Source of the DNA: a virus
Length of the DNA stretch: 39,216 nucleotides
Direction: 5' to 3' (one strand)
Virus record (IMG/VR): IMGVR_UViG_3300036832_001431
Location: 1-39,216 of that record
This document shows positions 2,348 through 37,331 of this stretch, piece by piece (the first letter of the stretch is position 1; the number at the start of each line of letters is the position of its first letter). Made by a program: the position numbers and the translations under genes. The notes below the pieces were generated by a model. It had not been told where the DNA came from, searched no databases, and worked only from the letters and a program-made list of their open reading frames with translations.

Positions 2348-4132
2348 ATGCACGTACGCCGTCCGCCCGTCGCGCCGTGGTGGGGCCGAGGCCGCTCACC
2401 GGCCGAACGCTGGCCGGGTGTCTCGCTCGACTTCGAGGCGACCTGGTCCACGCTGCGGCGTCGGTGGGAAACCCACGAGGGCCGGTACTACTTCGATGCC
2501 GCGAAGGCCGCACGCGCGGAATCGTTCTTCCCGTTGTTTCTCCAGCATCACATCGGCGCGTTTGCCGGCCAGGCCTTCGAGCTTCGCGACGACCAGCGGC
2601 TGCTGATGATCCGGCCGATGTTCGGCTGGCGTCGGGCCGTCGACGGCCTCCGACGCATCCGGAAGCTGTTCGCGTTCTGCCCGAAGGGATACGGCAAGAG
2701 TCCGCTCGGGGCCGGCCTCGGGCTCTACCTCGCGCGCTTCGACGGCGAGCCGGCCTCCGAGGTCTATGCGGTCGCGGCCGACCGGAACCAGGCCCGCACC
2801 GTCCACGACAACGCGAAAGTCATGGTCGAGAATTCGCCCGACCTGATGGACGGCTGCGCGATTGTGAAAAATGCGATTACCTGGCCGGACCTCTACTCGC
2901 GGTACATCGTCCTCTCGAGTGACGCCGCCACGAAGCACGGGTTTCGGCCGCACGGCATCATCTTCGATGAACTGCACGCGCAGAAAAATCGGGACCTCTT
3001 CGAGGCCCTCCGTAAATCGATGGACAAGCGGGACCAACCGCTGCTGATCATCATCACGCACGCCGGCGACGACGACGAAGGCATCTGCTACGAAGAGTAC
3101 GACCTCGCGAAGCGCGTGCTGAGTGGCAACGCGTCGGAGCTCGAGACGACCCTGCCGGTCATCTTCGAGGCGCAGAAGGGCGAGCCGTGGAATAATCCGG
3201 CGCTCTGGCGCCGCGTGAATCCCGGGCACGGGACGACCATCAAACACGACGGCGTGGCCGAGGAAGCGCGCGAGGCCGCGGCCGAACCCCGCAAACGAAA
3301 CGACTTCGAGCGGTATCACCTGAATCGCTGGACGAACCAGGCGACGGCCTGGATTCCGCTCGATTGGTGGGATGCGTGCGCCGGTCCGCTCGAGGACCCG
3401 GTCCTCCTCGAGCTCGAATGCGCGGCCGGTCTCGACCTGGCGCAGAAGTGGGACCTCGCCGCCTTCGTCGTCGTCTTCCGTCGATTCCTCGAAGTCGAGA
3501 CGGCCATCGACATCATGGAGAAAAACGACGACACCGGCGAACACACGAAGCGCCGCGTCACCTTGAACTATGAACTGTTCGTGCGGCCGCACTTCTGGAT
3601 TCCCGAGAACACGATGCAGCTGCACGAACGCGTGGACGGCGTGCCGTACGGCCTTTGGCGGGACCTCGGCCTGGTCACGGCGACCGAGGGCGACGTCATC
3701 GACTATGACCGGATCTTCGAGGACATCACGACCCGGATCGTGCCCCGGTATCCGCGATTGAAGCAGGGCGGCATCGGGTATGACCCGGCGTTCGCCACGG
3801 ACCTCGCGAGTCGGTTGCGCGACCTGGCCGGCCTCTCGGTTGTGGAAGTGTTACAGAACTATAAGATGCTCAGCGAGCCGGCGCAGATTGTCGAGGCCCT
3901 GATCAAAGGCCGACGCGTCCGGCACGACGGCCATCGCGTGCTCCGATGGAATTTCGAGAACGTCGCCGTCAAGACCGATGACGCTGGGCGGATTCGGCCG
4001 GTGAAGCCGAAGAATGCCGCCAAGCGCATCGATGGCGTAGTCGGGACGATCATGGGCACCAAGGCACTCGAGATGCCGAAGGTTCGGGCCCCGGAATATC
4101 AAATCGTCGTAGTCGGGGGAGGCACCAAATGA
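2348..4132 (+). CDS. terL: Terminase large subunit (packaging ATPase-nuclease)
   Basis: 594 aa, normal length for HK97-type large terminases. The ATPase half carries a Walker A-like 'CPKGYGKS' (111-118) and Walker B 'IIFDE' (204-208), followed by a probable coupling segment 'LLIIITHAGDDDEG' (232-245). The RNase H-like nuclease half carries Asp in 'AGLDLAQKWDLAAF' (D363), 'GGIGYDPAF' (D479) and 'KRIDGVVG' (D562). The protein pumps DNA into the procapsid through the portal and cuts it at the genome ends. ATG 2348 lies just after terS; the stop overlaps the next start as ATGA. Confidence 0.95.
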   Translation: MHVRRPPVAPWWGRGRSPAERWPGVSLDFEATWSTLRRRWETHEGRYYFDAAKAARAESFFPLFLQHHIGAFAGQAFELRDDQRLLMIRPMFGWRRAVDGLRRIRKLFAFCPKGYGKSPLGAGLGLYLARFDGEPASEVYAVAADRNQARTVHDNAKVMVENSPDLMDGCAIVKNAITWPDLYSRYIVLSSDAATKHGFRPHGIIFDELHAQKNRDLFEALRKSMDKRDQPLLIIITHAGDDDEGICYEEYDLAKRVLSGNASELETTLPVIFEAQKGEPWNNPALWRRVNPGHGTTIKHDGVAEEAREAAAEPRKRNDFERYHLNRWTNQATAWIPLDWWDACAGPLEDPVLLELECAAGLDLAQKWDLAAFVVVFRRFLEVETAIDIMEKNDDTGEHTKRRVTLNYELFVRPHFWIPENTMQLHERVDGVPYGLWRDLGLVTATEGDVIDYDRIFEDITTRIVPRYPRLKQGGIGYDPAFATDLASRLRDLAGLSVVEVLQNYKMLSEPAQIVEALIKGRRVRHDGHRVLRWNFENVAVKTDDAGRIRPVKPKNAAKRIDGVVGTIMGTKALEMPKVRAPEYQIVVVGGGTK

Positions 4133-4356
4133 GCGACAAACGCACGGGAGGCCGGCCGCCGTTGTATGAGACGGCCGCCTCGCAGCGCATTGTGGTTCGG
4201 GTCACGCCGGCCCAACGGTTGGAACTCCGACGGGTCGCCGACCAGCAGGGGACAGGGATGGCCGGCGTGATTCGAGAATTGATCGATGAACGGGTCGAGG
4301 ACCGGCGCCCGTTTCCCGGGCACCGGCACGACGAAGAGGAGGAAGAGGACGATTAG
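4129..4356 (+). CDS. Ribbon-helix-helix DNA-binding protein
   Basis: 75 aa. A beta strand 'SQRIVVRVTP' and two helices ('AQRLELRRVADQQGTGMAGV', then 'IRELIDERV') give the Arc/CopG ribbon-helix-helix pattern, with a Gly-containing turn between the helices. The C-terminal 15 residues are strongly acidic (six Glu and three Asp). It is translationally coupled to terL (ATGA) and ends in TAG, overlapping tail-to-tail by 4 bp the last gene of the reverse operon. It probably acts as a dimeric repressor; the CCTAGG palindromes are candidate sites, but nothing in the sequence links them directly. Confidence 0.7.
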   Translation: MSDKRTGGRPPLYETAASQRIVVRVTPAQRLELRRVADQQGTGMAGVIRELIDERVEDRRPFPGHRHDEEEEEDD

Positions 4357-4586
4357 GAACGGTCGGTGCGCGAGAGGCCGGACCAGGTCGCGATGGCCGA
4401 GGGGCCCGGGATATGCGCCAGGTGCGGGCCGGCGTGCCCCTCGGGCCGCGTGCAGATGTAGACCCGGCCGTCGTGCGTCCTCGAGCCGCTCTGGCATTGC
4501 GGCCCCTCGGCCGGCGGATACTCGGCCGCGAGGGCCTGCCCCTCTCGGATGGACAATTCGCGGAACAGTTCGCGGATAGATTTCAT
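4353..4586 (-). CDS. Small Cys/His protein
   Basis: 77 aa, last gene of the seven-gene reverse operon, start coupled by ATGA to the gene before it. The middle holds 'CQSGSRTHDG...C' followed by 'CTRPEGHAGPHLAHIPG'. The 'C-x3-GH-x-GPH' pattern is widespread in small phage proteins, where it probably binds zinc. No function is known. The stop (TAA on this strand) overlaps the RHH gene on the other strand, leaving no room for a terminator between the convergent operons. Confidence 0.55.
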   Translation of the reverse strand: MKSIRELFRELSIREGQALAAEYPPAEGPQCQSGSRTHDGRVYICTRPEGHAGPHLAHIPGPSAIATWSGLSRTDRS

Positions 4587-4792
4587 CGGACCTCCTCACC
4601 GGGCACGGCCTCGGTCTGTAACCAAATCGTCAGCAATCGAAGAATCAACGCACGAATCGACGTGCCATCTCGGCGGGCCTTCGCGCGCACGTCGCGCCAG
4701 AACGTTGCCGGGATTTGATCCAGCATGTAGCGTTTGCCGGTGTCGGCGTAACTCGGGAACTGTCGCGAATAACCCCGTTTGCGGGCAGGCAT
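4583..4792 (-). CDS. Small CopG/RHH-like protein
   Basis: 69 aa. A basic N-terminus ('PARKRGYSRQ') is followed by 'GKRYMLDQIPATFWRDVRAK' and 'RRDGTSIRALILRLLTIWLQ', which looks like a strand plus two helices of a ribbon-helix-helix dimer. If so, it may autoregulate this operon through the palindrome at 5990-6001. It is preceded by the 66 aa gene one base upstream and coupled to the next gene by ATGA. A non-DNA-binding helical protein cannot be excluded. Confidence 0.55.
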   Translation of the reverse strand: MPARKRGYSRQFPSYADTGKRYMLDQIPATFWRDVRAKARRDGTSIRALILRLLTIWLQTEAVPGEEVR

Positions 4793-4793
4793 C

Positions 4794-4994
4794 TTAGCTC
4801 TCCTCCTGAACCCAGTACTGAAAAAACGCCGTCGAGCGCATGTGATTCATCTCGCGATTCAGGCGTCGGGCCTCGGCCTCGGCGGCGTCCCGGGTCTCGA
4901 AGTACTGAATCTCGCCAAGGCGTTTCAGTGTTGCCTCGCGCGTGCCGGTGACGCCGCCCGAGACCCGACACCCGACCGTGAACCGGCCGGTCAT
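4794..4994 (-). CDS. Small protein of unknown function
   Basis: 66 aa from ATG 4994 (ATGA overlap with the upstream gene's stop); the longer open frame to 5342 would run through the two upstream genes and is rejected. 'MTGRFTVGCRVSG' then 'LGEIQYFETRDAAEAEARRL' and 'NREMNHMRSTAFFQYWVQEE' suggest a strand-helix-strand fold resembling the small SPOR-like or viral accessory folds that track residue pairs ('F.TRDAAEAEARRLN'). No function is assigned. Confidence 0.5.
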   Translation of the reverse strand: MTGRFTVGCRVSGGVTGTREATLKRLGEIQYFETRDAAEAEARRLNREMNHMRSTAFFQYWVQEES

Positions 4995-5212
4995 CGGGAC
5001 ACCCGGCGGCCGCCGAGGCGGCGCGGCATCGGTTGACCGAGAAACAGCGAGACCGTTTGCTGGAGACCGGCGGCCCGGGCGGCGTCCCAAATGCGCAGAT
5101 TCTCGGTCGTGTATCCGGCATACTCGATCGTGCCGGCGTGATAGGCCTCGGCGTTGGCGCGGAGTTCGGCCGCCCATTGTCGGGCGCGGGCCTCCTCTGG
5201 AATTTCCTTCAT
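4991..5212 (-). CDS. Small helical protein of unknown function
   Basis: 73 aa. It is helical with an acidic start ('MKEIPEEARARQWAAELRAN') and the central 'GTIEYAGYTTENLRIWDAA', ending in a basic 'RRLGGRRVSR'. The start overlaps the upstream stop (ATGA) and its own stop overlaps the next start. No membrane segment, signal peptide or metal motif. I do not recognise it. Confidence 0.5.
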   Translation of the reverse strand: MKEIPEEARARQWAAELRANAEAYHAGTIEYAGYTTENLRIWDAARAAGLQQTVSLFLGQPMPRRLGGRRVSR

Positions 5213-5457
5213 CGGTTCCCCCAGACCCGGCCATCGAAGGACGTAACGCCATTATTGAAGGCGCACACGAGGGCATCGGCGGCGGCGTACCCGAGTTTCG
5301 AGATGACCACGGGCGCGACTTCGGCCCCGTCAATCGGTTCAATGGTCACCGGGTACTCCCGGCGGCCGCGGGTCGCGAAGGGGCGCGAGGCCCGATAGCA
5401 CACCCCTTCCACGAGTGTCAGACGATGACCGGCAATCGATTTGGTCAGCATGATCAC
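5209..5457 (-). CDS. Small protein of unknown function
   Basis: 82 aa from GTG 5457, which overlaps the upstream stop (GTGA); an in-frame ATG two codons later (5451) is the alternative. Mostly beta: 'IAGHRLTLVEGVCYRA', 'REYPVTIEPIDG', then a helix 'SKLGYAAADALVCAFNNG' and 'VTSFDGRVWGNR'. Not recognised. Coupling on both sides argues that it is translated. Confidence 0.5.
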   Translation of the reverse strand: MIMLTKSIAGHRLTLVEGVCYRASRPFATRGRREYPVTIEPIDGAEVAPVVISKLGYAAADALVCAFNNGVTSFDGRVWGNR

Positions 5458-5675
5458 TTGACCTCGACATCATTGGCATCGAGGATGGACTCGAGGCCTT
5501 CACTGATGCAGGCCAGGGTGCCCACCGTCGCGCCGGTGAATTCGCCGGCGGCGAGGAGGTCAACCAGACCGGCCAGGTCGGCCATCTGCTGACGGACGAC
5601 CGCGAGATTTTTTCTGACCGCGGCCTCGGTGCGGGCCGCCTGGATGCCTTCGGCGCCAGGATTGTATGAGGTCAT
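5454..5675 (-). CDS. Small helical protein of unknown function
   Basis: 73 aa from ATG 5675; the longer frame to 5966 would cross the upstream gene and is rejected. 'MTSYNPGAEGIQAARTEAAV', 'RQQMADLAGLVDLLAAGEFT' and 'GTLACISEGLESILDANDVE' make an amphipathic, mostly helical protein. It starts within the upstream stop (TAATG) and its stop overlaps the next start. No function is known. Confidence 0.5.
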   Translation of the reverse strand: MTSYNPGAEGIQAARTEAAVRKNLAVVRQQMADLAGLVDLLAAGEFTGATVGTLACISEGLESILDANDVEVK

Positions 5676-5920
5676 TACTGCACGTCCTTTGCTGTCGAGA
5701 CGAACACGAACACGTACCCGGTTTTCACGGCGCCGCCGGCCAGGGGCCCCGACCAGTGCATCTTCTGGCAGAGGGCCTCGGCCGCCTTCCGGTGCACGGC
5801 CTCGCCACTCAATTCGTGCGGGTAGGAAATCGTGACCCGGTTGCCGTCGGAATCCGAGGCCGAAATCCTCGAGCCGCGGGTATTGGTCGCGCCGAGGAAT
5901 TTGGTTGTGATGGCCTTCAT
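5675..5920 (-). CDS. Conserved small phage protein
   Basis: 81 aa, first gene of the reverse operon. 'MKAITTKFLGATNTRGSRI', 'DGNRVTISYPHELSGEAVHR', 'AAEALCQKMHW' and 'GYVFVFV' follow a pattern I recognise from many uncultured phages and GC-rich prophages, where it is an uncharacterised small protein. It appears to be a mixed beta/alpha single domain. The leader between its promoter (5978-6006) and the ATG is about 50 nt and can form a GGGGC/GCCCC hairpin (5949-5964). No strong ribosome site is visible. Confidence 0.65.
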   Translation of the reverse strand: MKAITTKFLGATNTRGSRISASDSDGNRVTISYPHELSGEAVHRKAAEALCQKMHWSGPLAGGAVKTGYVFVFVSTAKDVQ

Positions 5921-5977
5921 AAAGTGTCTTGAACCCTTCGATTAGCAGGGGGCCTAATTGCCCCAACCGATAGACCT

Positions 5978-6006
5978 ATTCTCCCGCTAAATCCTAGGAT
6001 TGTCAA
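5978..6006 (-). promoter_or_regulatory. Sigma70-type promoter of the reverse operon
   Basis: On the reverse strand, TTGACA (6006-6001) matches the -35 consensus exactly. A 17 bp spacer follows, then GAGAAT (5983-5978), which matches four of six -10 bases. Transcription would start near 5971 and read the seven small genes. A palindrome fills part of the spacer, so a bound repressor would block RNA polymerase. Confidence 0.65.
5990..6001. promoter_or_regulatory. Palindromic operator candidate AATCCTAGGATT
   Basis: A perfect 12 bp palindrome inside the spacer of the reverse promoter and touching its -35 box. AATCCTAGG recurs at 6026-6034, and TTCCTAGGAT occurs upstream of the recombinase operon at 27303-27312. 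CTAG is usually rare in GC-rich genomes, which makes the repeated use notable. The binding protein is unknown; an RHH or HTH protein encoded in this window is the likely candidate. Confidence 0.6.
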
Positions 6007-6099
6007 ACGACCCGAAACGGGCCGGAATCCTAGGGTTTTCGGCCAGGTTTCAGCAGCCAAAACCCGAGGGCCTCCCGCACACTCTCAGGCCTCGACCAT

Positions 6100-7998
6100 A
6101 TGAACCGGGCGTATAGCGTCTTGCACGTCAAGGCCGCCAATCCTGACCTCCGGGTGATTACCGGCGTGGCCTCGACACCGACACCCGACCGACTCGGAGA
6201 CATTGTCGAGCCCCTCGGGATGTCGTTTAAGAATCCGGTCCCGCTCCTCCTGTACCACGACACGAAGAAGCCGGTCGGCACGGTCAAATTTTTTCCGCCG
6301 ACGAAGGACGGTCTCGAGTTCGAGGCCTCGCTGCCGACGATTGACGAACCCGGCACCCTGCACGACCGAGTCGAGGAGGCCTGGCAATCGATCAAGGCCG
6401 GCCTCCTCGCCGCCGTGTCGATTGGATTCCGGGCCATCGAGGAAGCCTGGATGAACGACGCCGCGGCGTATCGATTCATCAAGACGGAAGTCCTCGAGCT
6501 CTCCCTCGTGACGATTCCCGCGAACCAGGATGCGACCATCGAAACGATCAAACGTCTCGACCAGGTCCATCTGCCGCCGGGCGCTACCGGCACCGTTCAC
6601 CGACCCGGCGCTTCGGGTACTCCCGTCGTACGCGTCCAGCGAGGCGCGACCGCTATGACCATTCCAGACCAGATCAAAAGTTACGAAGCCACGCGCGCCG
6701 CCGATGTCGCACGCCAGGCCGCGCTGATGCAGACGGCCGCCGACGCCGGCACGACCCTCGATGCCGCGCAGGGCGAGGAGTACGACACCCTCGGTGCGAA
6801 GGTGAAAGCCGTCGATGCGCATCTCGTGCGCCTGCACGAGCAAGAGCAGCTGAACATCGCGAGGGCCGTCGCCGTCACCGGGCCGGCCGACCCGAATGCC
6901 GCGGCCGCCGAACGGCGCGGCGTCGTCATTCAACTCGCGCCGAATCTCCCGAAGGCGACCGGCTTCACCCGGTACGCGCGCGCGCTGATCATGTCGCGCG
7001 GCAATCTGATGCAGGCCGCCGAGATTGCCAAGCAGTGGCGCGATTCGACGCCCGAGGTTGAACTCGCGCTGAAGGCCGCGGTCGCCGTCGGCACGACGAC
7101 CGATGCCGTGTGGGCCGGTCCCCTGGCGCCGATGAAACCGTTGCTCACGGAATTCCTCGAGCTCCTGCGGAACGCGTCGATTGTGGACCGCGTGCCCGGG
7201 ATGCGTCACGTCCCGTTCAACGTCTCGGTCGCCGGGCAGACCGGCGGCGGCACGTACGGATGGGTCGGGCAGAACGCGCCGAAACCCGTGAGCGCGCTCG
7301 CCTTCAATGCGCAGACCCTCGGCATCGCGAAGTGCTCGGGCATCATCGTCATCTCGGAGGAACTCGCGCGGGTCTCGACGCCGAGCGCCGAAGACATCAT
7401 CCGGCGCGACATGATTGCCGGCATCGCGGCCTTCCTCGCCACGCAGTTCACCGACCCGACGCTCGCGCCGGTCGCAAACGTGTCGCCGGGTTCGATTACC
7501 AACGGCGTCGCCCTCACGGCCAGTGCCGGCGCGACGCCGGCCAATGCGCGGACGGACATCCTGACGCTCGCGGGCAAGTTGGTCGCCGCGAATCTGACGA
7601 CGGCCGGGGCGGTCCTCCTGATGTCGGAGACGAATGCGCTCGCGCTCGCCGGCGCACTGAATCCGCTCGGGCAACCGTTGTACCCGGGCCTGAACGCGCA
7701 AGGCGGCACGGTCCTCGGGTTCCAGGTCATCACGAGTCAAGCGCTCGGCGTGAACGTCATCCTGGTCCAGGGCAACGGCATCCTGATCGCGGACGATGGC
7801 GGCGTCGAAATCGATGTCTCGCGCGAGGCCTCGGTGCAGATGGATTCGGCCCCGGACAATCCGATGCTCGCGACGACCGTCATGCAGTCGCTCTGGCAGA
7901 ACAACCTGGTCGGCCTCCGCGCGGACCGCTTCATCAACTGGAAGCGCGCGCGCCTGGCGTCGGTCCAGTACACACAGCAAACGTACTTGGCCGCGTAA
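6100..7998 (+). CDS. HK97-type prohead protease / major capsid protein fusion
   Basis: 632 aa. Residues 1-155 are an HK97 (U35-like) prohead protease, with catalytic His in 'LLYHDTKKPVGTV' (H53) and Ser in 'AAVSIGF' (S107), followed by 'ELSLVTIPANQDA'. Residues about 186-245 look like the scaffolding delta region of a capsid precursor ('QIKSYEATRAADVARQAALM', then a helix ending near 'HLVRLHEQEQ'). Residues about 260-632 are the HK97-fold capsid ('GQTGGGTYGWVGQNAPKPVS', 'VISEELARVSTPSAEDIIRR', 'QSLWQNNLVGLRADRFINWK'). An in-frame ATG at 6655 could start a separate capsid protein. The protein builds the procapsid shell and then cleaves itself during maturation. Confidence 0.92.
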   Translation: MNRAYSVLHVKAANPDLRVITGVASTPTPDRLGDIVEPLGMSFKNPVPLLLYHDTKKPVGTVKFFPPTKDGLEFEASLPTIDEPGTLHDRVEEAWQSIKAGLLAAVSIGFRAIEEAWMNDAAAYRFIKTEVLELSLVTIPANQDATIETIKRLDQVHLPPGATGTVHRPGASGTPVVRVQRGATAMTIPDQIKSYEATRAADVARQAALMQTAADAGTTLDAAQGEEYDTLGAKVKAVDAHLVRLHEQEQLNIARAVAVTGPADPNAAAAERRGVVIQLAPNLPKATGFTRYARALIMSRGNLMQAAEIAKQWRDSTPEVELALKAAVAVGTTTDAVWAGPLAPMKPLLTEFLELLRNASIVDRVPGMRHVPFNVSVAGQTGGGTYGWVGQNAPKPVSALAFNAQTLGIAKCSGIIVISEELARVSTPSAEDIIRRDMIAGIAAFLATQFTDPTLAPVANVSPGSITNGVALTASAGATPANARTDILTLAGKLVAANLTTAGAVLLMSETNALALAGALNPLGQPLYPGLNAQGGTVLGFQVITSQALGVNVILVQGNGILIADDGGVEIDVSREASVQMDSAPDNPMLATTVMQSLWQNNLVGLRADRFINWKRARLASVQYTQQTYLAA

Positions 7999-18115: not shown

Positions 18116-20701
18116 ATGAATCCGACTTACACGTACGACGACCACGTTCTCGACATCTCGAGCGTGACGCCGAACACCGGGCCGACGGCCGGCGGCACGC
18201 CGGTGCAGATTGTCGGCCGCGGCTTCCTCGACCCGGCCGGCGGCACGACGGCCCCGACCCCGACCGTGACCATCGGCGGCGCCGCGGTCTCGGTCTCGAG
18301 TGCGGGCGACACCTTCGCGCAGTTCGTCACGCCGGCGCACGCCGCGGGCGCGGTCGATATCGTCGTCACGGCGTCCGATGGCGTGGCCGTCACCCTGACC
18401 AATGGCTTCACGTACGCCGACGCCGCGCCGCCGCACGACCTCCGCTTCCGCTCACCCTCGGGCGGCGCGAATTCCCTGGCGCGCACCGAGAACACGCCGC
18501 CGCAAATCACGCAGAGTCTCGGCCAACACGACACGGCCGGATTCTCGACGCCGCAGCAGCCCGTCGGCCTCGAAGGCGTGACCTGGTCGGCGTTCGGGCA
18601 GGTCCTCTTCGAGGGGCCGATTACCAAGACGACGGCGCGCACCGACGGCCGCGAGAAGCTCGAGGTTTGGGATGTCGAGGCCCTCGGGCAATCGTTCCTC
18701 CTCTCGAAGCGCAACGCGACCGGGTCCTGGCACTCGGTCTCGGCCACGACGATTCTGACCACGCTCCTCGCGCAGTACGCCCCGGGATTTCAGTCCTCCA
18801 TCGAGGGCGGCCTGCCGCTGATCACGCTCGAGGCCGACGGGTCGCAAGATTTATGGTCGGTCCTCATCAACGCGTGCGAGCTCGCCGGGGCGCACGTCTT
18901 CGTGGCCGGCACGACCGTGCACGCGTTCTCGCTCGATTCCCACTACGACCCACCGGGCGCCGTCACCGACGGGAATCCGGATCTGCTCTGGCCGGAAATC
19001 GGCCAGGCCGTCACCTATCAGCTCGAGTACTCGCAACTGATCAACTCGGTCACCGTCCGCGGCGCCGAGGGCATCGTGGCGACGGTCGAGGATGCCGCCT
19101 CGATTGGGCAGTACGGCCGGCTCGGTGGGCCGTTGATTGACGACAACACGCTGACGACCCTGGACGAATGCACGCGCCGCGGGCAGACGATTCTCAAGCA
19201 GCACGCGCAGCCGGTCCCAACCGCGCACTACGCCACGCGGGACCTGAAGACCCGGGCCGGCAAGACGGTCAGTATTTCCACGTCGGTCCCGCACATCTCG
19301 GCGTCCTATCTGATCTCGAACGTCCAGATTGACCAGCTCGAGAACCTGGCCGTCGGGCAGCGCCCGCGGTTCATCGTGACGGCCGTGCCGGCGTGGGCCC
19401 CGGCCATGATGCTCAGTGCCCCGACGACGCGCGTGCTCGAGGCCGCGGTCGATGTGATTGCCGAGAAGAATCAGCAGCCGAGACTCGCCGGCGATGTCAC
19501 GAGTGACGCCGGCGGCCGCACGACGATTCCGCCCGCGTCGATTCCGGCCTCGAAGCTGGCCGGGTGCATCGACTCGACCAAGTTGACGCCGACGCCCGTC
19601 GTGCCCGGGTCGTACGGCGGCGCCTTCAGTCGCGAGCTCGAGCCGGCCGCGCAGACCTTCACGCCGAATCATAAAATCGTCGCGTTCTCGGTCGATGCCG
19701 CCGGCCGGATTACCGCGGCCGCGGAGGACCCGGTGCCGGCCATCAAGGCCGACGGCGCCGAACCCTTCACTGCGAATCAGTCACTCGGCGGCCACGCCCT
19801 CACGAACGCGGCCGACCCGACCAACGCGCAAGATGTCGCGACGAAGGCGTACGTCGATGCGCATGCCGGCAGCGGCGGCGGCGCGGGCGGCGATATCCGG
19901 TCGGATGGCACCGTCCCCTTCGCGGCCAATGAATCGATGGGCGGCCATGCCCTCGTGAACGTCGCCACGCCGGTGAATCCCACCGACGCGGCGACGAAGG
20001 CGTACGTCGATGCGCGCACGCCGCAGAACGCCAGTGTCAAGGCGTACCGGGGCACGGTCCAGACGCTGACCTCCGGCACCGAGACGCCGATTGCGATGAC
20101 GGCGACCAGTTACGACTCGGCCGGGTTCTGGTCCTCGAGCCAACCGACGCGGCTGACGGTGCCGGCCGGATTCGCGGGTCGCTATCAGGTCCTCGGGCAG
20201 ATTGGCCTCGCGCCGTTTACCGCAACCGGCACCGTCGTCATCCGCATCAAGGTCAATGGCGTCCTGGCCGCGACCCACGGCTTCAACGCGACGGCGCTCG
20301 CGGATGCCGTGCAGGTCGATGCGCAGCTGAATCTCGCCGTCAACGATTACGTCGAACTGACGACCGTCGTCACCGACAGTGCCGGATCGACGCACGACAC
20401 GGTCGGCGGCGCGACCGAGACGTACGTGAGCATGATCCTGAGCGTCGGCGGCGTCGGCGGCACCGGCGGCGGGACCGGCGGCGGCAGCGGCACGCGGTAC
20501 GCCGGCGAAATTCCGACGGGCACGATCGACGGGACGAATCGCACGTACACGGCCGCGCACGCGTACCTCGACCTGGAGGTCTACGTGAACGGCCTGGCGC
20601 AAACCCCGGGCATCGATTACGACCCGATGACGCCGACGACGTTTGCGTTCAACCTGCCGCCGCTGCCCGGGGATACCGTGATGATTTCCTACGGCGTCTG
20701 A
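18116..20701 (+). CDS. Tail tip/hub protein with IPT domain and fibre modules
   Basis: 861 aa. Residues 1-105 hold the end of one IPT domain and a complete one ('DISSVTPNTGPTAGGTPVQI', ending 'LTNGFTYAD'). Residues about 106-470 resemble hub/tip proteins ('FGQVLFEGPITKTTARTDGR', 'LWSVLINACELAGAHVFVAG', 'HYATRDLKTRAGKTVSIS'). Two fibre repeats follow at about 553-582 and 604-630 ('LGGHALTNAADPTNAQDVAT', 'KAYVDA'). Residues 640-775 look like a C1q/TNF-type jelly roll, and about 795-861 a small beta domain ('LEVYVNGLAQTPGIDYDP', 'GDTVMISYG'). It is probably the central tip plus an anchored fibre. Confidence 0.78.
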   Translation: MNPTYTYDDHVLDISSVTPNTGPTAGGTPVQIVGRGFLDPAGGTTAPTPTVTIGGAAVSVSSAGDTFAQFVTPAHAAGAVDIVVTASDGVAVTLTNGFTYADAAPPHDLRFRSPSGGANSLARTENTPPQITQSLGQHDTAGFSTPQQPVGLEGVTWSAFGQVLFEGPITKTTARTDGREKLEVWDVEALGQSFLLSKRNATGSWHSVSATTILTTLLAQYAPGFQSSIEGGLPLITLEADGSQDLWSVLINACELAGAHVFVAGTTVHAFSLDSHYDPPGAVTDGNPDLLWPEIGQAVTYQLEYSQLINSVTVRGAEGIVATVEDAASIGQYGRLGGPLIDDNTLTTLDECTRRGQTILKQHAQPVPTAHYATRDLKTRAGKTVSISTSVPHISASYLISNVQIDQLENLAVGQRPRFIVTAVPAWAPAMMLSAPTTRVLEAAVDVIAEKNQQPRLAGDVTSDAGGRTTIPPASIPASKLAGCIDSTKLTPTPVVPGSYGGAFSRELEPAAQTFTPNHKIVAFSVDAAGRITAAAEDPVPAIKADGAEPFTANQSLGGHALTNAADPTNAQDVATKAYVDAHAGSGGGAGGDIRSDGTVPFAANESMGGHALVNVATPVNPTDAATKAYVDARTPQNASVKAYRGTVQTLTSGTETPIAMTATSYDSAGFWSSSQPTRLTVPAGFAGRYQVLGQIGLAPFTATGTVVIRIKVNGVLAATHGFNATALADAVQVDAQLNLAVNDYVELTTVVTDSAGSTHDTVGGATETYVSMILSVGGVGGTGGGTGGGSGTRYAGEIPTGTIDGTNRTYTAAHAYLDLEVYVNGLAQTPGIDYDPMTPTTFAFNLPPLPGDTVMISYGV

Positions 20702-20702
20702 T

Positions 20703-23252
20703 ATGGAACGCAATCTCACCGGCTGGGAACTCGGCGACATCGGCGAGCAGCGCGCGTCGGCGTCGACGAACATCACGGCCGGCGTCACCGTCCCGAACAC
20801 GACGGCCCGCAGTGGACAGTTCCGGCTGCAGATTGCCGTGCAGGGCAGTGCCTCGAACCTGCTCGCGTTTCCTGGCGCCTCGGTCACCGGCACGGCCGTC
20901 AGTCCCACGCTGCCGGCCGGCACACATAAGCGCTTTCGCGGCCGGTTCTACCTCCGGGTCGAGAGCACGTACATGCCGTTCGGGAATAGTCAGATTCGCC
21001 TCTGCGGCCTCGGCGGCGAATTCGACACGAACAGCATCAACGTCTGGATGGATGCCACGCGCGCGCTGACCGTGAAAGTCGGGCCCGGTCTGCCGGCCAT
21101 CGGCGGCGGCGGGTACACGACGCAACCGCATACGCCGCCGATGGCCGTCGGCACCTGGTATCGGTTGCTGCTCGATGTCGATTACGCGATTACCTCCGCG
21201 GTCGCCGTCGCCGTCTCGCTGCAGGTCACGACCGACGCCTCGACCCCGGCCCTCGATGCGACCGTGACGGATGCGGGCAGTTTCAGCACGTCCGATGCGA
21301 TGGGCGCGGTCACGCTCCTGAGCGAACGCGTCCGCAACACGAACGACGCCGCCGGGACGTATTCCTTCGATGACCTCGTGTGGCTCGCCGCGGCCGGGGC
21401 CGAAGGCGCGAATCCGCTGACGTTGCCGGACGCGACCAACGTCCTCGGGCTCGCGCCGACATCGATGATCACGGCGCAGTGGGAGACCGGGACGGTCACC
21501 AATGTGGACGAGTACCCGCTCGATACCAGCGGGACCGGGGGCGCCGGCGACACCTTGAGCTCGGTCCTCGGCGACGGCACGACGGTCGTCTTCGGCCATG
21601 CGAGCTCGGCGGCCCTCGGCATCATCGGGGCGGCCGCGGTCAAGGTGTCCGGCAATGCGCGCATCACCGGGAGTGGCACCGGCGCCGTGGATTTCCTCCT
21701 GACCGGGACGCCCACCTCGCGCGTGCTGCAGACGCAATACCCGGCCGTCGCGAGCGGCGTCACGCCGGTCGGCGGCCAGGATTGGAGCGGCCTGCGCGCG
21801 AATCACTTCGACTCGATGACCTTCGGCGTGACCAAACGGAACGGCACGCAGCAGACCTCCCTCGGAAACATCATTGTGGAATATCTGCCGGCGACGGCCA
21901 CGACGTTTGCCGGCGCCGCGCAGATTCGCGGGACGACGCAGATCAAACCCGGCACGATTACCGACCCGCAAATCAGCGCGACGGCCGGCATCAAACTCTC
22001 GAAACTCGAGAAGGCCGTCGTTGCCGCGGATGGTTCGGTGCCTCTGACGGCCGACCTGCCCCTCGGGGGACACAAGCTGACCGGCGTGGCCGACCCGGGC
22101 GCCGCGCAGGATGCCGCGACGAAGGCCTACGTCGATGCGCACGCCCCGACCGGCGTCATCCTCGCAAATGGGTCGGTCCCGTTCGCCGCCGACGAATCGA
22201 TGGCCGGTCACAAGCTGACGAACGTCACCGACCCGGTCAATCCGCAGGACGCGGCGACGAAGGCGTACGTCGATGGGCACGCCGCCGGCGGCGCGCCTGG
22301 GACCTTCAACGAGACGCCAGGCGGCGCCGTCAACGGCGCCAATACGGCCTTCACGACGGCGGTTGCATACGCGTCGGGCACGCTACGCGTCTATGTGAAT
22401 GGCGTACGCCTCGCGCCGGCCGACTACACCGAAACGGGCGCGGCGGCCTTCACGCTCGGTACCGCGCCGGCGACTGGCGACCTCCTGCGCGTCGACTACA
22501 ACTTCGTGACCGGCGTCGTCGGTACCGCGCTTACGGGTACGTTCGCGGCGCGGCCGGCGGCCGCGACAAGCGGCCGTCTCTATCTGCCAACGGACGGTTT
22601 CTCGATCGACCGCGACAACGGCGCGTCGTGGGATGCGTGGGGTCCGCTCGCGCCGCTGATCGAACCGAGCGATACCGGGTTCAGTTGGATCAACCAAGGC
22701 GCGTCGACGATCGCGATCGATCGCGGCCGGCTGACGTTGCGCGGCGCCGGCACGAGCGGCGGTACGAACTGGGCCCTGCGCGTGAAGACGTTGCCGGCGG
22801 CGCCGTACACGGTGACGTACCGCTTCCTGCCGCCGGTCTTTTGCAAGTTGTTTCTCGGGTACGGCCTGGTCGTGCGCCAGGTCGGCGCCGGCACGGGACA
22901 AAACCGCTTCGTCGCGTTGTGGTGGAGTCTCGGCAACTTCGCCGGCGCCGACGCCGGCGGCATCATCCGCTGCGAGAAGTGGACGAGCCCGACAGTCGTC
23001 AGCGCGAGTTACATCGAACAGCGCGCGATTACGCCGCCGCAATGGTTCCGCGTCCAGGACGACGGCACGAATCTGATCTTGTCAGTCAGCGGCGACGGCG
23101 CGACGTGGGTCACGCTGCTGACCGTCGCGCGTCTGGATTTCATGCTCCAGGGCGCCGACCAGTTCGGGTTCGGCGTGTTCACGATGAACAACGCGGCGCC
23201 GAATCTCGACGTGCCGATTACGCTCGTCTCGCTCGCCGTGACGACGCCGTAG
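20703..23252 (+). CDS. Tail fibre / receptor-binding protein with lectin-like domains
   Basis: 849 aa. Residues 1-230 look like a LamG/concanavalin jelly roll ('RFRGRFYLRVESTYMPFGNS', 'YSFDDLVWLAAAG'). Two fibre repeats at about 450-525 ('LGGHKLTGVADPGAAQDAAT', 'AGHKLTNVTDPVNPQDAATK') repeat the modules of the previous gene, as does the small beta domain at about 532-601 ('LRVYVNGVRLAPADYTETGA'). Residues 620-849 are a second lectin-like domain ending 'LVSLAVTTP'. It probably recognises the host surface. CTCGAG almost vanishes in this gene, consistent with recombination. It ends in TAG, with the ribosome site overlapping the stop. Confidence 0.75.
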   Translation: MERNLTGWELGDIGEQRASASTNITAGVTVPNTTARSGQFRLQIAVQGSASNLLAFPGASVTGTAVSPTLPAGTHKRFRGRFYLRVESTYMPFGNSQIRLCGLGGEFDTNSINVWMDATRALTVKVGPGLPAIGGGGYTTQPHTPPMAVGTWYRLLLDVDYAITSAVAVAVSLQVTTDASTPALDATVTDAGSFSTSDAMGAVTLLSERVRNTNDAAGTYSFDDLVWLAAAGAEGANPLTLPDATNVLGLAPTSMITAQWETGTVTNVDEYPLDTSGTGGAGDTLSSVLGDGTTVVFGHASSAALGIIGAAAVKVSGNARITGSGTGAVDFLLTGTPTSRVLQTQYPAVASGVTPVGGQDWSGLRANHFDSMTFGVTKRNGTQQTSLGNIIVEYLPATATTFAGAAQIRGTTQIKPGTITDPQISATAGIKLSKLEKAVVAADGSVPLTADLPLGGHKLTGVADPGAAQDAATKAYVDAHAPTGVILANGSVPFAADESMAGHKLTNVTDPVNPQDAATKAYVDGHAAGGAPGTFNETPGGAVNGANTAFTTAVAYASGTLRVYVNGVRLAPADYTETGAAAFTLGTAPATGDLLRVDYNFVTGVVGTALTGTFAARPAAATSGRLYLPTDGFSIDRDNGASWDAWGPLAPLIEPSDTGFSWINQGASTIAIDRGRLTLRGAGTSGGTNWALRVKTLPAAPYTVTYRFLPPVFCKLFLGYGLVVRQVGAGTGQNRFVALWWSLGNFAGADAGGIIRCEKWTSPTVVSASYIEQRAITPPQWFRVQDDGTNLILSVSGDGATWVTLLTVARLDFMLQGADQFGFGVFTMNNAAPNLDVPITLVSLAVTTP

Positions 23253-25242: not shown

Positions 25243-26976
25243 TCAGGCCGCGAGGCCGGCGAACGGCACATCCCACAGTTCGCCGCATCCCGTGGAGGAT
25301 GCACCGACCTGCGGTATGGTTCCGCCGAAAATTGGCAGCAATTTCAATTTGCCGGCAAAGTGGAAGGCCCGGGTATCGCGCCGGGGAATCTTCGACCAGC
25401 GCCGATCACGGGGGCGCAGTGCCTCGACCGGGGCCGCCGGCGTAAACACAATCTTCCCCTCGAGCAGGCGCCGGAATAGGTCCCGGGTCGCCGCGACCGG
25501 GCCCTCGAGTTCGGCCGTGAAGGTCTCGAGCCGCTGCCGGATCAACCGCTGCAGGGTCGCACGATTCGGCAACGGGGCCAGGGGCGCCGCCCCGTCGGCC
25601 GCGGCCAGGTCGGCCCGGAGCTGGGCAACCGTGGCCTCGCTGTCCCGATAGGCCTGATGAATCTTCGGCAGGTTCCCGAGGTCAAGGATGGCCTGCGCGG
25701 CCCGGTCTCGCACCCGTTCGGCCCGCTCGAGGTCTGCCCGCAGACCCTTCGCGCCGGGGCCCTGGCGTCGGGTGTCGTACAGGGCGACCAACTTTTTCAG
25801 AATCCGGTCGGCATCGGGTGTCGCCTCGGCCAGGATGGCGCGCAGGATGGCCTGGTCCACAATCGGCACTTCGACGCGCGTGCCGTTGGTGCAGGCCGCC
25901 GGCCCTTTCCGATTGTAGGTGTCGCAGATGTACGTCATGCCCTGGTCTTTGCGAATGCCGGCCCGGGCCGCCATCGTGCCTCCGCAGACGCCGCACTGCC
26001 CGAAGTGGGTCAGGCGATAATTCGAGTTGCCATCGAGCAGCCGGCCGCCCTTCGGGCCTCCCATGCGGTCGGTGCGTCCCTGTCGATGGGCCGCGGCCGC
26101 TTTCCAGACTTCGACCGAGACGATGGCCGGCGTGTTGGACGGCGCGACAATCCACTCGCGCTCGGGGCGTCGGGTGAATTTGTAATCGCCGTCGGCATCT
26201 TTTTTCGTGGTGCGGCCGTAGACGACCGGGCCGCCGTAGTAGATCGGCCGTCGCAGCATGCTGACAACCGCGCCACGGGTCCAGGGGCCCTGCCGCACGG
26301 TGCGGAGGCCCTCGGCGTTCAATTCGTTCACGATGCGCGTGCCGCCGGCCCCGGCGGCCGCTCGAGCAAAGATGCGACGAACAATCGCGGCCTGGTCTTC
26401 GTTGATTTCCCGCACGACGAACGACGATTCCCCGACCATCTTCCGAACGTTGTCGTACCCGAAAATCGACCGGCCGACGACGTGCCCGGATTTGATTTTC
26501 TTCACGAGGGCCGTCCGGGTCCAGGTCGCAATCTGCCGGACGTACTCCCGATTCTTCGCGCCGTCGATGAACCCGACGACATCATCGCTGAACGTCCCGT
26601 GCTTGAACTGCCGGCCGTCCTGGTAGTACCAGATTTCCACGCCGGCCTGCGCCAGGCGCTTCAACTCTCCGAAGGAATGGTCCCCATCGCGCCGACTGAA
26701 TCGGGACGAATCCCGCATCGCGAGAATCCGGCGCGGCGTTCGGTCGGCCAGAATCCTCTCGATCAACCGCTGCCGATTCTTCAACCGGCTGGTCATCGTG
26801 CCGCTCACGGCATCGTCGGCAAACATTTGATCGGCCGCGGGTGCCGGCCAGTGTTTCTCTCGGATGAACCCGACGGCGTTCTCGGTCTGGAGGGCGACCG
26901 ATTTTTCATCTTCGGTCACGTTCCGCTGCAGGGTCGATTTGCGGGCGTAGGTGTAGGTCGTCGTGCCGGCCCTCAT
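25243..26976 (-). CDS. Large serine recombinase (integrase)
   Basis: 577 aa from ATG 26976, which overlaps the upstream stop (ATGA); a start at 27003 is possible but less coupled. The resolvase domain has catalytic Ser in 'YARKSTLQRN' (S14), 'DDAVSGTM' and 'RDSSRFSRRDGDHS' (88-101). A recombinase domain follows ('RIVNELNAEGLRT', 'MLRRPIYYGGPVVYGRT'), then a zinc ribbon (Cys 328, 331, 351, 362) and a coiled coil. The C-terminus closes with 'FAGLAA'. It cuts and joins attP and attB, integrating the phage. The gene is convergent with the tail operon. Confidence 0.93.
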   Translation of the reverse strand: MRAGTTTYTYARKSTLQRNVTEDEKSVALQTENAVGFIREKHWPAPAADQMFADDAVSGTMTSRLKNRQRLIERILADRTPRRILAMRDSSRFSRRDGDHSFGELKRLAQAGVEIWYYQDGRQFKHGTFSDDVVGFIDGAKNREYVRQIATWTRTALVKKIKSGHVVGRSIFGYDNVRKMVGESSFVVREINEDQAAIVRRIFARAAAGAGGTRIVNELNAEGLRTVRQGPWTRGAVVSMLRRPIYYGGPVVYGRTTKKDADGDYKFTRRPEREWIVAPSNTPAIVSVEVWKAAAAHRQGRTDRMGGPKGGRLLDGNSNYRLTHFGQCGVCGGTMAARAGIRKDQGMTYICDTYNRKGPAACTNGTRVEVPIVDQAILRAILAEATPDADRILKKLVALYDTRRQGPGAKGLRADLERAERVRDRAAQAILDLGNLPKIHQAYRDSEATVAQLRADLAAADGAAPLAPLPNRATLQRLIRQRLETFTAELEGPVAATRDLFRRLLEGKIVFTPAAPVEALRPRDRRWSKIPRRDTRAFHFAGKLKLLPIFGGTIPQVGASSTGCGELWDVPFAGLAA

Positions 26977-27242
26977 TTGCTGCCGTCCTTCACCCTCGCC
27001 CATCGGGCCCGAGCGGCTCGAGACATCTTCGCGCGGACGGCCTTCGAGATGGGGGCCCGCGGCGGCCGCGGCCGGGCGACCCGTTCGACGGCGAGAGGTT
27101 GCTGCAGTTCGCGCGCGAGCCGTTCGGGTGTCAGGGGCCCGAGATGCAACTCGGCCAGGATATCGGGGAAGGTCGCCACGGCCCGCCGGACCTCGGCGGC
27201 CGCGCCGGCGCGTGCATAGCGCCGAAATTCAGAGTCAGTCAT
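26973..27242 (-). CDS. Small basic protein upstream of the recombinase
   Basis: 89 aa. N-terminal helices ('DSEFRRYARAGAAAEVRRAV', 'ILAELHLGPLTPERLARELQ') lead to a basic C-terminus ('ISKAVRAKMSRAARARWARV') of the 'KMS.AARARWA' type found in small phage regulators. It is coupled by ATGA to the recombinase. A DNA-binding partner such as a directionality factor is possible, but nothing proves it. Confidence 0.55.
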   Translation of the reverse strand: MTDSEFRRYARAGAAAEVRRAVATFPDILAELHLGPLTPERLARELQQPLAVERVARPRPPRAPISKAVRAKMSRAARARWARVKDGSK

Positions 27243-27362
27243 ACCAGGATGGTCCTTTACACAGAGGCCGCCGTAAGCAGGCCCGGGCGGCGTAGGGGCC
27301 GATTCCTAGGATACCGCGGACGGTGTATTACTCGGGGTATTACTCCCGACTTACCGGAGCGG
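27243..27362. promoter_or_regulatory. Recombinase upstream region: CCTAGG palindrome, direct repeats, possible att site
   Basis: 120 bp without a gene. It contains ATTCCTAGGAT (27302-27312), like the operator at 5990-6001, and two GTATTACTC repeats (27325-27333 and 27337-27345). A GCCGCC...GGCGGC hairpin can form near 27268-27293. On the reverse strand TATCCT overlaps the palindrome as a possible -10, but no good -35 is at 17 bp. Serine integrase attP sites often flank the gene; no integration boundary is visible here. Confidence 0.45.
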
Positions 27363-28336: not shown

Positions 28337-28376
28337 GGCCCCTCTAGAGAAACGGGTTACGGCCTAAACCCGATTG

Positions 28377-28382
28377 AGTCAA
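28377..28382 (-). promoter_or_regulatory. Possible -35 box of the repressor promoter
   Basis: TTGACT on the reverse strand, 41 bases before the repressor start. A 17 bp spacer leads to TAACCC (28359-28354), a poor -10. If real, it is a weak promoter, consistent with the TTG start. It lies just beyond the operator at 28391. Confidence 0.3.
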
Positions 28383-28390
28383 ATACATAT

Positions 28391-28410
28391 GTTTTGCGTC
28401 TATGCAAAAC
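28391..28410. promoter_or_regulatory. Operator O1: GTTTTGC-N6-GCAAAAC inverted repeat
   Basis: Perfect seven-base arms around a six-base spacer (GTCTAT), in the 147 bp gap between divergent HTH genes. HTH dimers of the CI/Cro type bind such sites. The site lies between the two start sites and could control both directions. Confidence 0.7.
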
Positions 28411-28438
28411 GGGTCCGCGGGAAATTTACACCGACCCC

Positions 28439-28466
28439 TTGCACTTTGCAAATAGATGCGTATGAT
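28439..28466 (+). promoter_or_regulatory. Early promoter with overlapping operator O2
   Basis: TTGCAC (28439-28444), 16 bp, then TATGAT (28461-28466), which matches five of six -10 bases. The spacer holds TTTGCAAA (28445-28452) and ATAGATGCG. The latter resembles the reverse strand of O1 (ATAGACGC), so the same regulator probably binds both. The start codon at 28484 would lie close to the transcription start, giving a very short leader. Confidence 0.55.
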
Positions 28467-28483
28467 CCGCGAGTTGGTCCTGA

Positions 28484-35806: not shown

Positions 35807-36861
35807 TGGACCGCCGCCTGCTGATGATGATGACGGCGGGCAGCCGTTCGGCGCGGCCGGCACCGGAGAATCGCGCACCGTTGCCGCCCCTGCCGACCGG
35901 CATCACGGTGTACTCGACCCTGCCCTGGACGCCGCCGCACGAGCGCGATTACCTCCGGGCCGATTGCTGGGGCATTACGCTCGAGGGCCTGCCCTTCGTG
36001 CCTGGCGGCTCGAGCAATTACCCGGCGCAGAATCGTTTCCTCTCGTGGTTTTTTGATCGGTACCCGCTCGACTGGCAAGAGCGATGGATTGACCAGAATT
36101 TTCGGAACGGGTACACGCACGTCTTCCTCTCGCCGCCCGATGAAATGGGCCCGGTAGACCCGAATACACCCGGACCCGGCATGCGGCCGCGGCCGCCCGG
36201 GTCGGGACATTCACTGCAGCAAGTCGTGGACAATCACGGCCGCCTGCACGCGACCGGCCTGTACGTCTGCTCGTTCCTCGCCTCGAAATATTTTCAGGCG
36301 AAGGACATGACCGTGCAGCAGTACCAGGATTATGCCTTCCCGATTCTCGATGCCCTGACGAACGCCGGTGTCGTGGATGAAATCATCCCGGCCTGGGAAA
36401 TGGATTTGTTCAACACGCCCGGCGACATCACGAAGGGCATCTGCAAATCAGTCGGGCAACGCGCGCACGCCGCCGTCTGCTCGTGCTGGCTCCACTTCAG
36501 TCCACACGTCACGAGTTGGTTTGCCGACGGCGACCCGCGCGGACGCTACGGGTTTTGGGATGACCTCGGCGGCGACGTGAACGGCATCAATTACCAGGGT
36601 GCCCCGGAGTGGCTCGCGGACGAATGGCAAGCGCGCATCGTGGACACCTTGCACCAATTTGGCGAGCGCGGCAATCTGCACAAGCTCCGCGCCTTCGAGC
36701 GATGCGCGTACCTGATGTTTGATCATCCGACGCCGACCGAGGACGACGCGAATCTCGACGGCTTCCTCGGCTGCTGCGCGTTCGACGATGTCAAGCACAC
36801 CGATGCGAAAGTCTGGGGCTCCGGGGAAGGCCTGCGGAATCTCGACGGGAGTCCGGTGTGA
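35806..36861 (+). CDS. Possible TIM-barrel glycosidase-like protein
   Basis: 351 aa. No signal peptide; a short basic start with a Met run leads to 'ITVYSTLPWTPPHERDYLRA'. Alternating strand-helix units follow: 'WIDQNFRNGYTHVFLSPPDE', 'NAGVVDEIIPAWEMDLFN', 'GQRAHAAVCSCWLHFSPHVT', 'GDVNGINYQ', with several Trp and acidic residues at strand ends ('AWEMD' is a plausible acid/base site). This resembles glycoside hydrolase clan A barrels seen in phage virions, but I cannot name a family. Coupled by TGATG to the 609 aa gene, so the two probably act together, perhaps on host surface glycans. Confidence 0.45.
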   Translation: MDRRLLMMMTAGSRSARPAPENRAPLPPLPTGITVYSTLPWTPPHERDYLRADCWGITLEGLPFVPGGSSNYPAQNRFLSWFFDRYPLDWQERWIDQNFRNGYTHVFLSPPDEMGPVDPNTPGPGMRPRPPGSGHSLQQVVDNHGRLHATGLYVCSFLASKYFQAKDMTVQQYQDYAFPILDALTNAGVVDEIIPAWEMDLFNTPGDITKGICKSVGQRAHAAVCSCWLHFSPHVTSWFADGDPRGRYGFWDDLGGDVNGINYQGAPEWLADEWQARIVDTLHQFGERGNLHKLRAFERCAYLMFDHPTPTEDDANLDGFLGCCAFDDVKHTDAKVWGSGEGLRNLDGSPV

Positions 36862-37331
36862 CCGAGCCCGAGCTCGTCGTCGTGCCGGTGACCTTCAAGG
36901 CGGCCTGCGCGTTCGTCGCGCAGTATCACCGGCATCATCGCGAACCCCGCGGCTGTAAGTTTGCCCTTGGTGTCGAGCTCGAGGGCCGCCTGGTCGGCGT
37001 GGCGATGGTCGGCCGTCCCATCTCTCGGTACTTCGATGACGGCCGCACGGCGGAAATTACGCGGACCTGCACTGACGGCACCCGGAATGCGAATTCCAAA
37101 TTGTACGGCGCCTGTCGGGCCGCGGCGCGTGCGATGGGATACACGCGCATCGTGACGTACACCGAGACCGGGGAATCCGGCGCGAGTCTCCGGGCCGCCG
37201 GATTCGTGCAGGTCCGCACGCTCGCCCCGAGGCGCAACTGGGCCGAGAGTTCCGTCAAACTCCGCGCGATTCGGAATCCGGCCGCGCGCGGCGGCATTGT
37301 TCGCGGCCTCTGGGAGTGGCCGACCGCATGA
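36858..37331 (+). CDS. XF1762 family protein (GNAT-like)
   Basis: 157 aa from GTG 36858 (GTGA overlap). 'VTFKAACAFVAQYHRHHREP', 'FALGVELEGRLVGVAMVGRP', 'EITRTCTDGTRNANSKLYGA', 'TYTETGESGASLRAAGF' match the XF1762 family, which resembles GNAT acetyltransferases and is common in phages and prophages. Substrate is unknown. Coupled to the next gene by ATGA. Confidence 0.85.
   Translation: MTEPELVVVPVTFKAACAFVAQYHRHHREPRGCKFALGVELEGRLVGVAMVGRPISRYFDDGRTAEITRTCTDGTRNANSKLYGACRAAARAMGYTRIVTYTETGESGASLRAAGFVQVRTLAPRRNWAESSVKLRAIRNPAARGGIVRGLWEWPTA

Follow-up and report, generated by a model that had tools for sequence, protein, structure and literature searches.

The window, i.e., the whole stretch of DNA that was analysed, comprises 39,216 bases of a virus record and derives from a GC-rich tailed phage with genes for TerS, TerL, a fused prohead protease/capsid protein, a portal protein, a large recombinase and a divergent HTH pair. 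When bases 1-25000 were compared with the phage collection, similar DNA was not found. The gene at 129-1148 combines a ParB-like N-terminus with a methyltransferase domain, and the same phage carries a Mom-like DNA modification gene (36858-37331).

CCTAGG sites in the window

CCTAGG occurs four times in the window, at 61-66, 5993-5998, 6029-6034 and 27305-27310; these are the places named in an earlier, sequence-only reading, with the last copy shifted by one base. That reading had found no copy inside a gene by eye, had assigned all copies to control regions and had proposed a shared operator of one regulator controlling several operons. The called genes were indeed free of CCTAGG, all four sites being non-coding. 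The absence from genes is in itself uninformative, because few genic copies are expected: synonymous-codon shuffles gave a mean of 0.52 genic copies and none at all in 61% of the runs. The whole-window count is ordinary (4 vs. 2.38 expected, with at least 4 reached in 26 of 100 shuffles), and the shuffled control is negative in this form; counting over the whole window was discarded as a test, as it masks the signal where genic copies are scarcely expected. The placement, on the other hand, is unusual. Non-coding DNA amounts to 1,216-1,381 bases by two definitions (3-4% of the window), and the four copies observed there compare with 0.34 expected (P for at least four, 0.0005) or, by another estimate, with 0.47 expected (P 0.005), which makes chance an unlikely source of them.

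Two copies no more than 60 bp apart in non-coding DNA had a probability of 0.002-0.0075 in simulations, and TCCTAGGA occurs twice in the window. The extended palindrome AATCCTAGGATT is perfect at 5990-6001, has one mismatch at 6026-6037 and two mismatches at 27302-27313. The copy at the left end (61-66) lacks AT flanks, being bordered by CTC and GCC; it does not match the extended motif and is probably unrelated to the other CCTAGG sites.

The site at 27302-27313 (ATTCCTAGGATA, no strand assigned) is located about 60 bp upstream of a gene pair ending with the recombinase gene and keeps four of the six flanking bases; the probability that the other non-coding stretches contain a CCTAGG whose flanks deviate at no more than two positions was 0.003. 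It is single, without a partner, no promoter match was found near it, and it may be considered a weaker candidate, for a second target. Relatives of the recombinase and of the protein encoded at 26976-27242 were not found in viral contigs. Just upstream of the same gene pair, tandem 12-mers (CGGTGTATTACT/CGGGGTATTACT) at 27321-27344 raise the question of whether they belong to an attachment site or serve in control.

Regarding the proposal that one regulator acts via all CCTAGG sites on several operons of the window, the non-coding position of all four and the flanking bases retained at 27302 are in its favor, and the unmatched site 61 and the single, weak site at 27302 count against it; it is considered unlikely, and it is for the pair at 5990/6026 that an operator is well supported. 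Two RHH and two HTH proteins had been put forward as regulators. The former gained support with respect to the 5990/6026 pair. The HTH pair is a poor candidate: its divergence (CI-like/Cro-like, 28337-28483) contains a different inverted repeat of its own, GTTTTGCATAGACGCAAAAC at 28391-28410, which is likely the operator of the HTH pair and makes this pair an unlikely owner of CCTAGG.

The accessory cassette and its promoter

The cassette consists of seven small genes read leftward (minus strand) from 5920 to 4353. The first encodes a protein of 81 aa (5675-5920, phrog_3199) and is followed by two genes for which relatives were not found (73 aa, 5454-5675, and 80 aa, 5209-5451), by genes of 73 aa (4991-5212) and 66 aa (4794-4994), by the sixth gene, which encodes the Arc-like protein RHH-B (69 aa, 4583-4792), and by a last ORF of 77 aa (4353-4586). 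On the plus strand, the gene of a second RHH protein, RHH-A (75 aa), is located at 4129-4356. Among the capsid relatives (the best 80 of the 136 found), the RHH-A gene is present in 25, and there the distance from its aligned end to the capsid gene is 31-112 bases in 24 cases and 480 in one, as compared with 1,747 in the window. The cassette is an insertion between the RHH-A and capsid genes, which abut in the relatives, and RHH-A marks the insertion point. The capsid start was available for 79 of these relatives, and in a single one (L058) the 300 bp preceding the capsid gene contained CCTAGG, at the end of the terL coding sequence; the conservation of the palindromes in close relatives that the sequence-only reading called for was not borne out here. 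Since the cassette is inserted, and since the relatives are devoid of both the palindromes and the cassette, the comparison suggests that the palindromes came along with the cassette and belong to it rather than to the capsid operon.

Except for the first, the cassette proteins had no tblastn relatives among the fetched relative loci, and the first was matched only in the 48 loci fetched as its own relatives. These loci have other promoter layouts, and CCTAGG occurs within 110 bp upstream in 8 of the 48, without a AATCCTAGGATT pair. Relatives of the first gene are present in 29 phage records and are located within the first 2.5 kb in 7 of the 15 listed, as is often the case for early genes; where a record starts is a matter of convention, however, and one genome accounts for two of the seven. 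No toxin family was recognised in the cassette by family-library scans, and no known acr family in scans of Pfam, PHROGs and NCBIfam; an anti-defence function of the cassette is a guess.

The two sites at the head of the cassette are O1, the perfect palindrome AATCCTAGGATT at 5990-6001, and O2, AATCCTAGGGTT at 6026-6037, 36 bp from O1 (no strand assigned to either). The sole sigma70-type promoter match in 4100-6200 is TTGACA-17-GAGAAT on the minus strand (5978-6006); its 17-bp spacer contains O1, O2 is located upstream of its -35, and it reads into the seven small leftward genes with the Arc-like RHH gene among them. By itself this match is weak evidence, because 0.2 matches are expected by shuffling, as compared with the one found. 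O1 appears to constitute a palindromic operator-type site inside the promoter of the operon, the arrangement of an RHH-autoregulated operon of the Arc/CopG type. The 17-mer CCTAGGATTGTCAAACG occurs in two stretches of the viral contigs, both representing one unrelated phage gene.

CCTAGG pairs at RHH loci elsewhere

A gene-blind scan of viral contigs for AATCCTAGG occurring twice, 12-40 bases apart, yielded 36 stretches (22 distinct ones without copies), many of them genic or repeats. The 36-bp spacing of the window was found at two distinct places, inside a gene (L165) and between genes (L153/L167). L153 and L167 represent one phage with a GC of 0.61 that is unrelated to the window phage; L195 is the same phage as L167. 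The intergenic locus reads TTGACTTAATCCTAGGAT, then AATCCTAGGAAAAAGATG, and the ATG in the latter is the start codon of an RHH gene; the first site is placed behind TTGACT, the second directly before the RHH gene. The RHH protein passes the Pfam RHH_1 cut-off, and its gene is followed by a RelE-family gene and an HTH gene.

A tblastn search with this protein yielded 19 plasmid records and one more viral locus (L196), which together with L195 form a set of 21 RHH loci. CCTAGG within 120 bp upstream of the RHH gene was found at two of the 21, L195 and the locus of Devosia sp. SL43 (L197; NZ_CP063402.1), in both as a pair, spaced 36 and 35 bp, respectively, with the first copy behind TTGACT. The other 19 loci had no CCTAGG within these 120 bp (0/19), and in several of them TGATACCATTATATCA-like repeats take its place. 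The strand E-Q-[VL]-N-[FL]-R was present only in L195 and L197 among the 21 loci; three others have the strand A-I-N-L-R, with CCTAGG absent. Arc contacts DNA via Q9, N11 and R13.

The Devosia protein is the nearest homologue of the L167 RHH protein. The record is phage-like (terminase, portal, capsid, tape measure and integrase), with the RHH gene between tail genes; it contains four CCTAGG copies, with the AAT flank in the pair only, and the pair carries no operator annotation. The RHH loci of L167 and Devosia have the pair in common, as a conserved feature. The two Devosia sites differ, one being CCTAGGGT and the other CCTAGGAA, and the pair is still located on the RHH gene promoter, which argues against an RNA hairpin or terminator, i.e., against the palindromes of the window being two arms of one stem that shields the capsid operon from rightward transcripts. 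Such a stem is consistent with the predicted fold (-25.1 kcal/mol on the plus strand, -24.5 kcal/mol on the minus strand, z about -3.4 to -3.5) and with a short T run after O2 on the plus strand; the fold energy does not decide, however, because any palindrome that is present twice can form a stem of this kind, and the stem was not listed by the terminator scan, whose loop limit would exclude it. The hairpin is regarded as quite unlikely.

As a control, the neighborhoods of 38 distinct pair loci from the viral and genome scans (21 of 59 loci were dropped as copies) were examined, with a total of 121 ORFs of 40-150 aa. RHH_1 was matched by one of the 121 (L167) and DUF6364 by one, and RHH neighbors are therefore not a general feature of such pairs. 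The genome-contig scan with AATCCTAGGAT plus AATCCTAGG gave 23 stretches (16 distinct) and no 36-bp pair. The L167 case was picked after the pair scan; what gives it weight is that spacing, -35 position and RHH gene coincide, together with the Devosia homologue, to which a protein search and not a DNA search had led.

A host transcription factor, or chance, behind the sites of the window is an improbable explanation. The ordinary whole-window count is in line with it, as are the 38 distinct pair loci, most of which are genic or repeats, and the AATCCTAGGATT arrays in intergenic DNA of Eggerthellaceae, where other factors may use the word; the non-coding placement, the 36-bp pair and the link to RHH genes in L167 and L197 are opposed to it. 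The arrays just mentioned are short intergenic ones with three AATCCTAGGATT-like sites in two Eggerthellaceae contigs (L188:6067-6124 and L177:3483-3541). The sites in L188 are near a pair of genes resembling an RHH-type antitoxin and a PIN toxin; they were rejected as support, as this gene pair has its own palindrome at its start. A literature search found no published link between CCTAGG and an RHH protein and no report of CCTAGG as a palindromic phage repressor operator or binding site; the word turned up only in a primer.

A scan matrix built from the four sites of L195 and L197, i.e., from outside the window, gave O1 the top rank on either strand of the window (16.1 and 15.7 bits); among 30 random control windows, the highest score was 15.8 bits. 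O2 ranked sixth and 27302 tenth. The matrix is weakly specific: among its best hits in the relatives, words without CCTAGG received up to 18.9 bits.

The candidate binder and comparison with known systems

What the analysis established is the presence of the two sites, a matching promoter, the inserted state of the cassette and the reappearance of the pair before RHH genes elsewhere, and the 5990/6026 pair is a well supported candidate for an operator of RHH type; this support does not extend to the identity of the binder. Most likely, the CCTAGG pair would serve such a gene set as a switch for restricting its own expression. In the proposed mechanism, O1 between the -35 and -10 of the leftward cassette promoter and O2 36 bp off, upstream of the -35, would both be bound by an RHH protein, with RHH-B of the cassette as the most likely one; the bound protein would exclude RNA polymerase, whereby the cassette would restrain its own expression. 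That a protein binds there and represses, that the two sites cooperate and which protein is involved are what we infer here. Taken together, a two-site RHH operator through which the cassette limits its own expression, with RHH-B as the most likely binder, is considered fairly probable. Against the operator reading stand the position of O2 (upstream of the promoter in the window, downstream in L167 and Devosia), the strand Q-x-N-x-R missing from both RHH proteins of the window, the relatives of the window without the pair, the sixth rank of O2 by the matrix and the higher scores of words without CCTAGG in the relatives.

RHH-B matched phrog_6506 ('Arc-like repressor') with an E-value of 0.0035 and had no match in Pfam or NCBIfam; relatives were not found in viral contigs, phages or plasmids. 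In a single-sequence model of RHH-B (mean pLDDT 74.5), two helices coincide with the expected positions of helices A and B of RHH proteins, whereas the expected RHH strand came out as a helix. The top fold matches were mostly Arc, CopG, AmrZ, MatP and other RHH proteins, at E-values of 0.79 or worse; the Arc-operator structure 1par was among the matches. In the called genes scanned (all except 18116-20701 and 20703-23252), no further RHH family was found. RHH-B is the favored candidate for the binder of O1 and O2 because it is encoded by the cassette that would be controlled. A profile of the L167-family RHH proteins, run against all frames of the window, reached an E-value of 4.8 with RHH-B, and the strand Q-x-N-x-R is absent from RHH-A and RHH-B in the register chosen here. 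Judged by these comparisons, the L167 RHH protein has no close homologue in RHH-A or RHH-B, and since their strands differ from Q-x-N-x-R, they are not counted as members of the CCTAGG-linked L167/Devosia subfamily.

RHH-A, encoded just left of the cassette, is an RHH-like protein adjoining it and might bind the same operator. Its occurrence in 25 of 80 relatives, of which only L058 has CCTAGG in the 300 bp before the capsid gene, and there inside terL, makes this quite unlikely. RHH-A has retained its place between TerL and capsid in the window and the 25 relatives, but one strand position that should be turned toward the DNA is highly variable (V, Q, H, S, Y, W, E and others), as though the target of the protein were changing fast. 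In L007, a relative with 70% identity, an 18-bp perfect palindrome (CCGTTTCACGTGAAACGG, about 2900-2975) between the RHH-A and capsid genes is a possible operator of the local RHH-A. A TGACCTnnnCTGTCACAC-like inverted repeat recurs just upstream of the capsid start in L030, L032, L033 and L038-L042 and is a candidate for a lineage-specific operator or promoter.

The preferred reading, a self-limiting cassette with an RHH operator, can be compared with several systems. The loci of L153/L167 and Devosia share with the window the AATCCTAGG pair 35-36 bp apart, the first copy between a TTGAC box and the -10 region, and the vicinity of an RHH gene in a phage-like element; unlike in the window, the RHH gene comes first, directly after the second site, the second site is downstream, and the protein has the strand Q-x-N-x-R. 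RHH repressors are common in phages and plasmids, and to our knowledge few of their operators are known. Among the 21 loci, the CCTAGG pair accompanies Q-x-N-x-R in two of two cases and is found in none of the 19 without it, which ties an operator to an RHH subfamily by sequence alone and provides a directly testable DNA recognition rule. The CCTAGG pair could also mark self-regulated accessory cassettes in phage genomes. In Arc/ant of phage P22, the operator of an RHH repressor is located within the promoter of its own operon; the operator word differs from that of the window, and RHH-B is weakly similar to Arc.

Regarding RelBE-type systems, the antitoxin is described in PMC2812701 as an RHH repressor of its own operon; the L167 RHH gene with the RelE-family gene behind it resembles this, the window cassette being without a recognised toxin family. 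RHH domains are mentioned among the predicted anti-defence proteins of archaeal viruses in PMC11065993. The acr-aca operons, as described in PMC9410906, comprise small genes followed by a repressor gene and have one or two inverted repeats, one of them in the core promoter; the Aca proteins described there are HTH proteins. The window has the same layout, with a regulator gene behind small genes and with inverted repeats, O1 being the one in the core promoter; it differs in that the regulator is RHH-like rather than HTH and in that no known acr gene was recognised in the cassette. It is possible, though doubtful, that the cassette is an RHH-regulated counterpart of acr-aca operons, i.e., a movable set of small, fast-changing and perhaps anti-defence genes under its own RHH repressor acting via the CCTAGG pair. 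The pair layout (two AATCCTAGG copies at a distance of 35-36 bp, one of them within the spacer of the promoter) is seen again in unrelated phages whose RHH proteins differ, and on this reading pair scans could find self-regulated accessory cassettes that have no aca gene.
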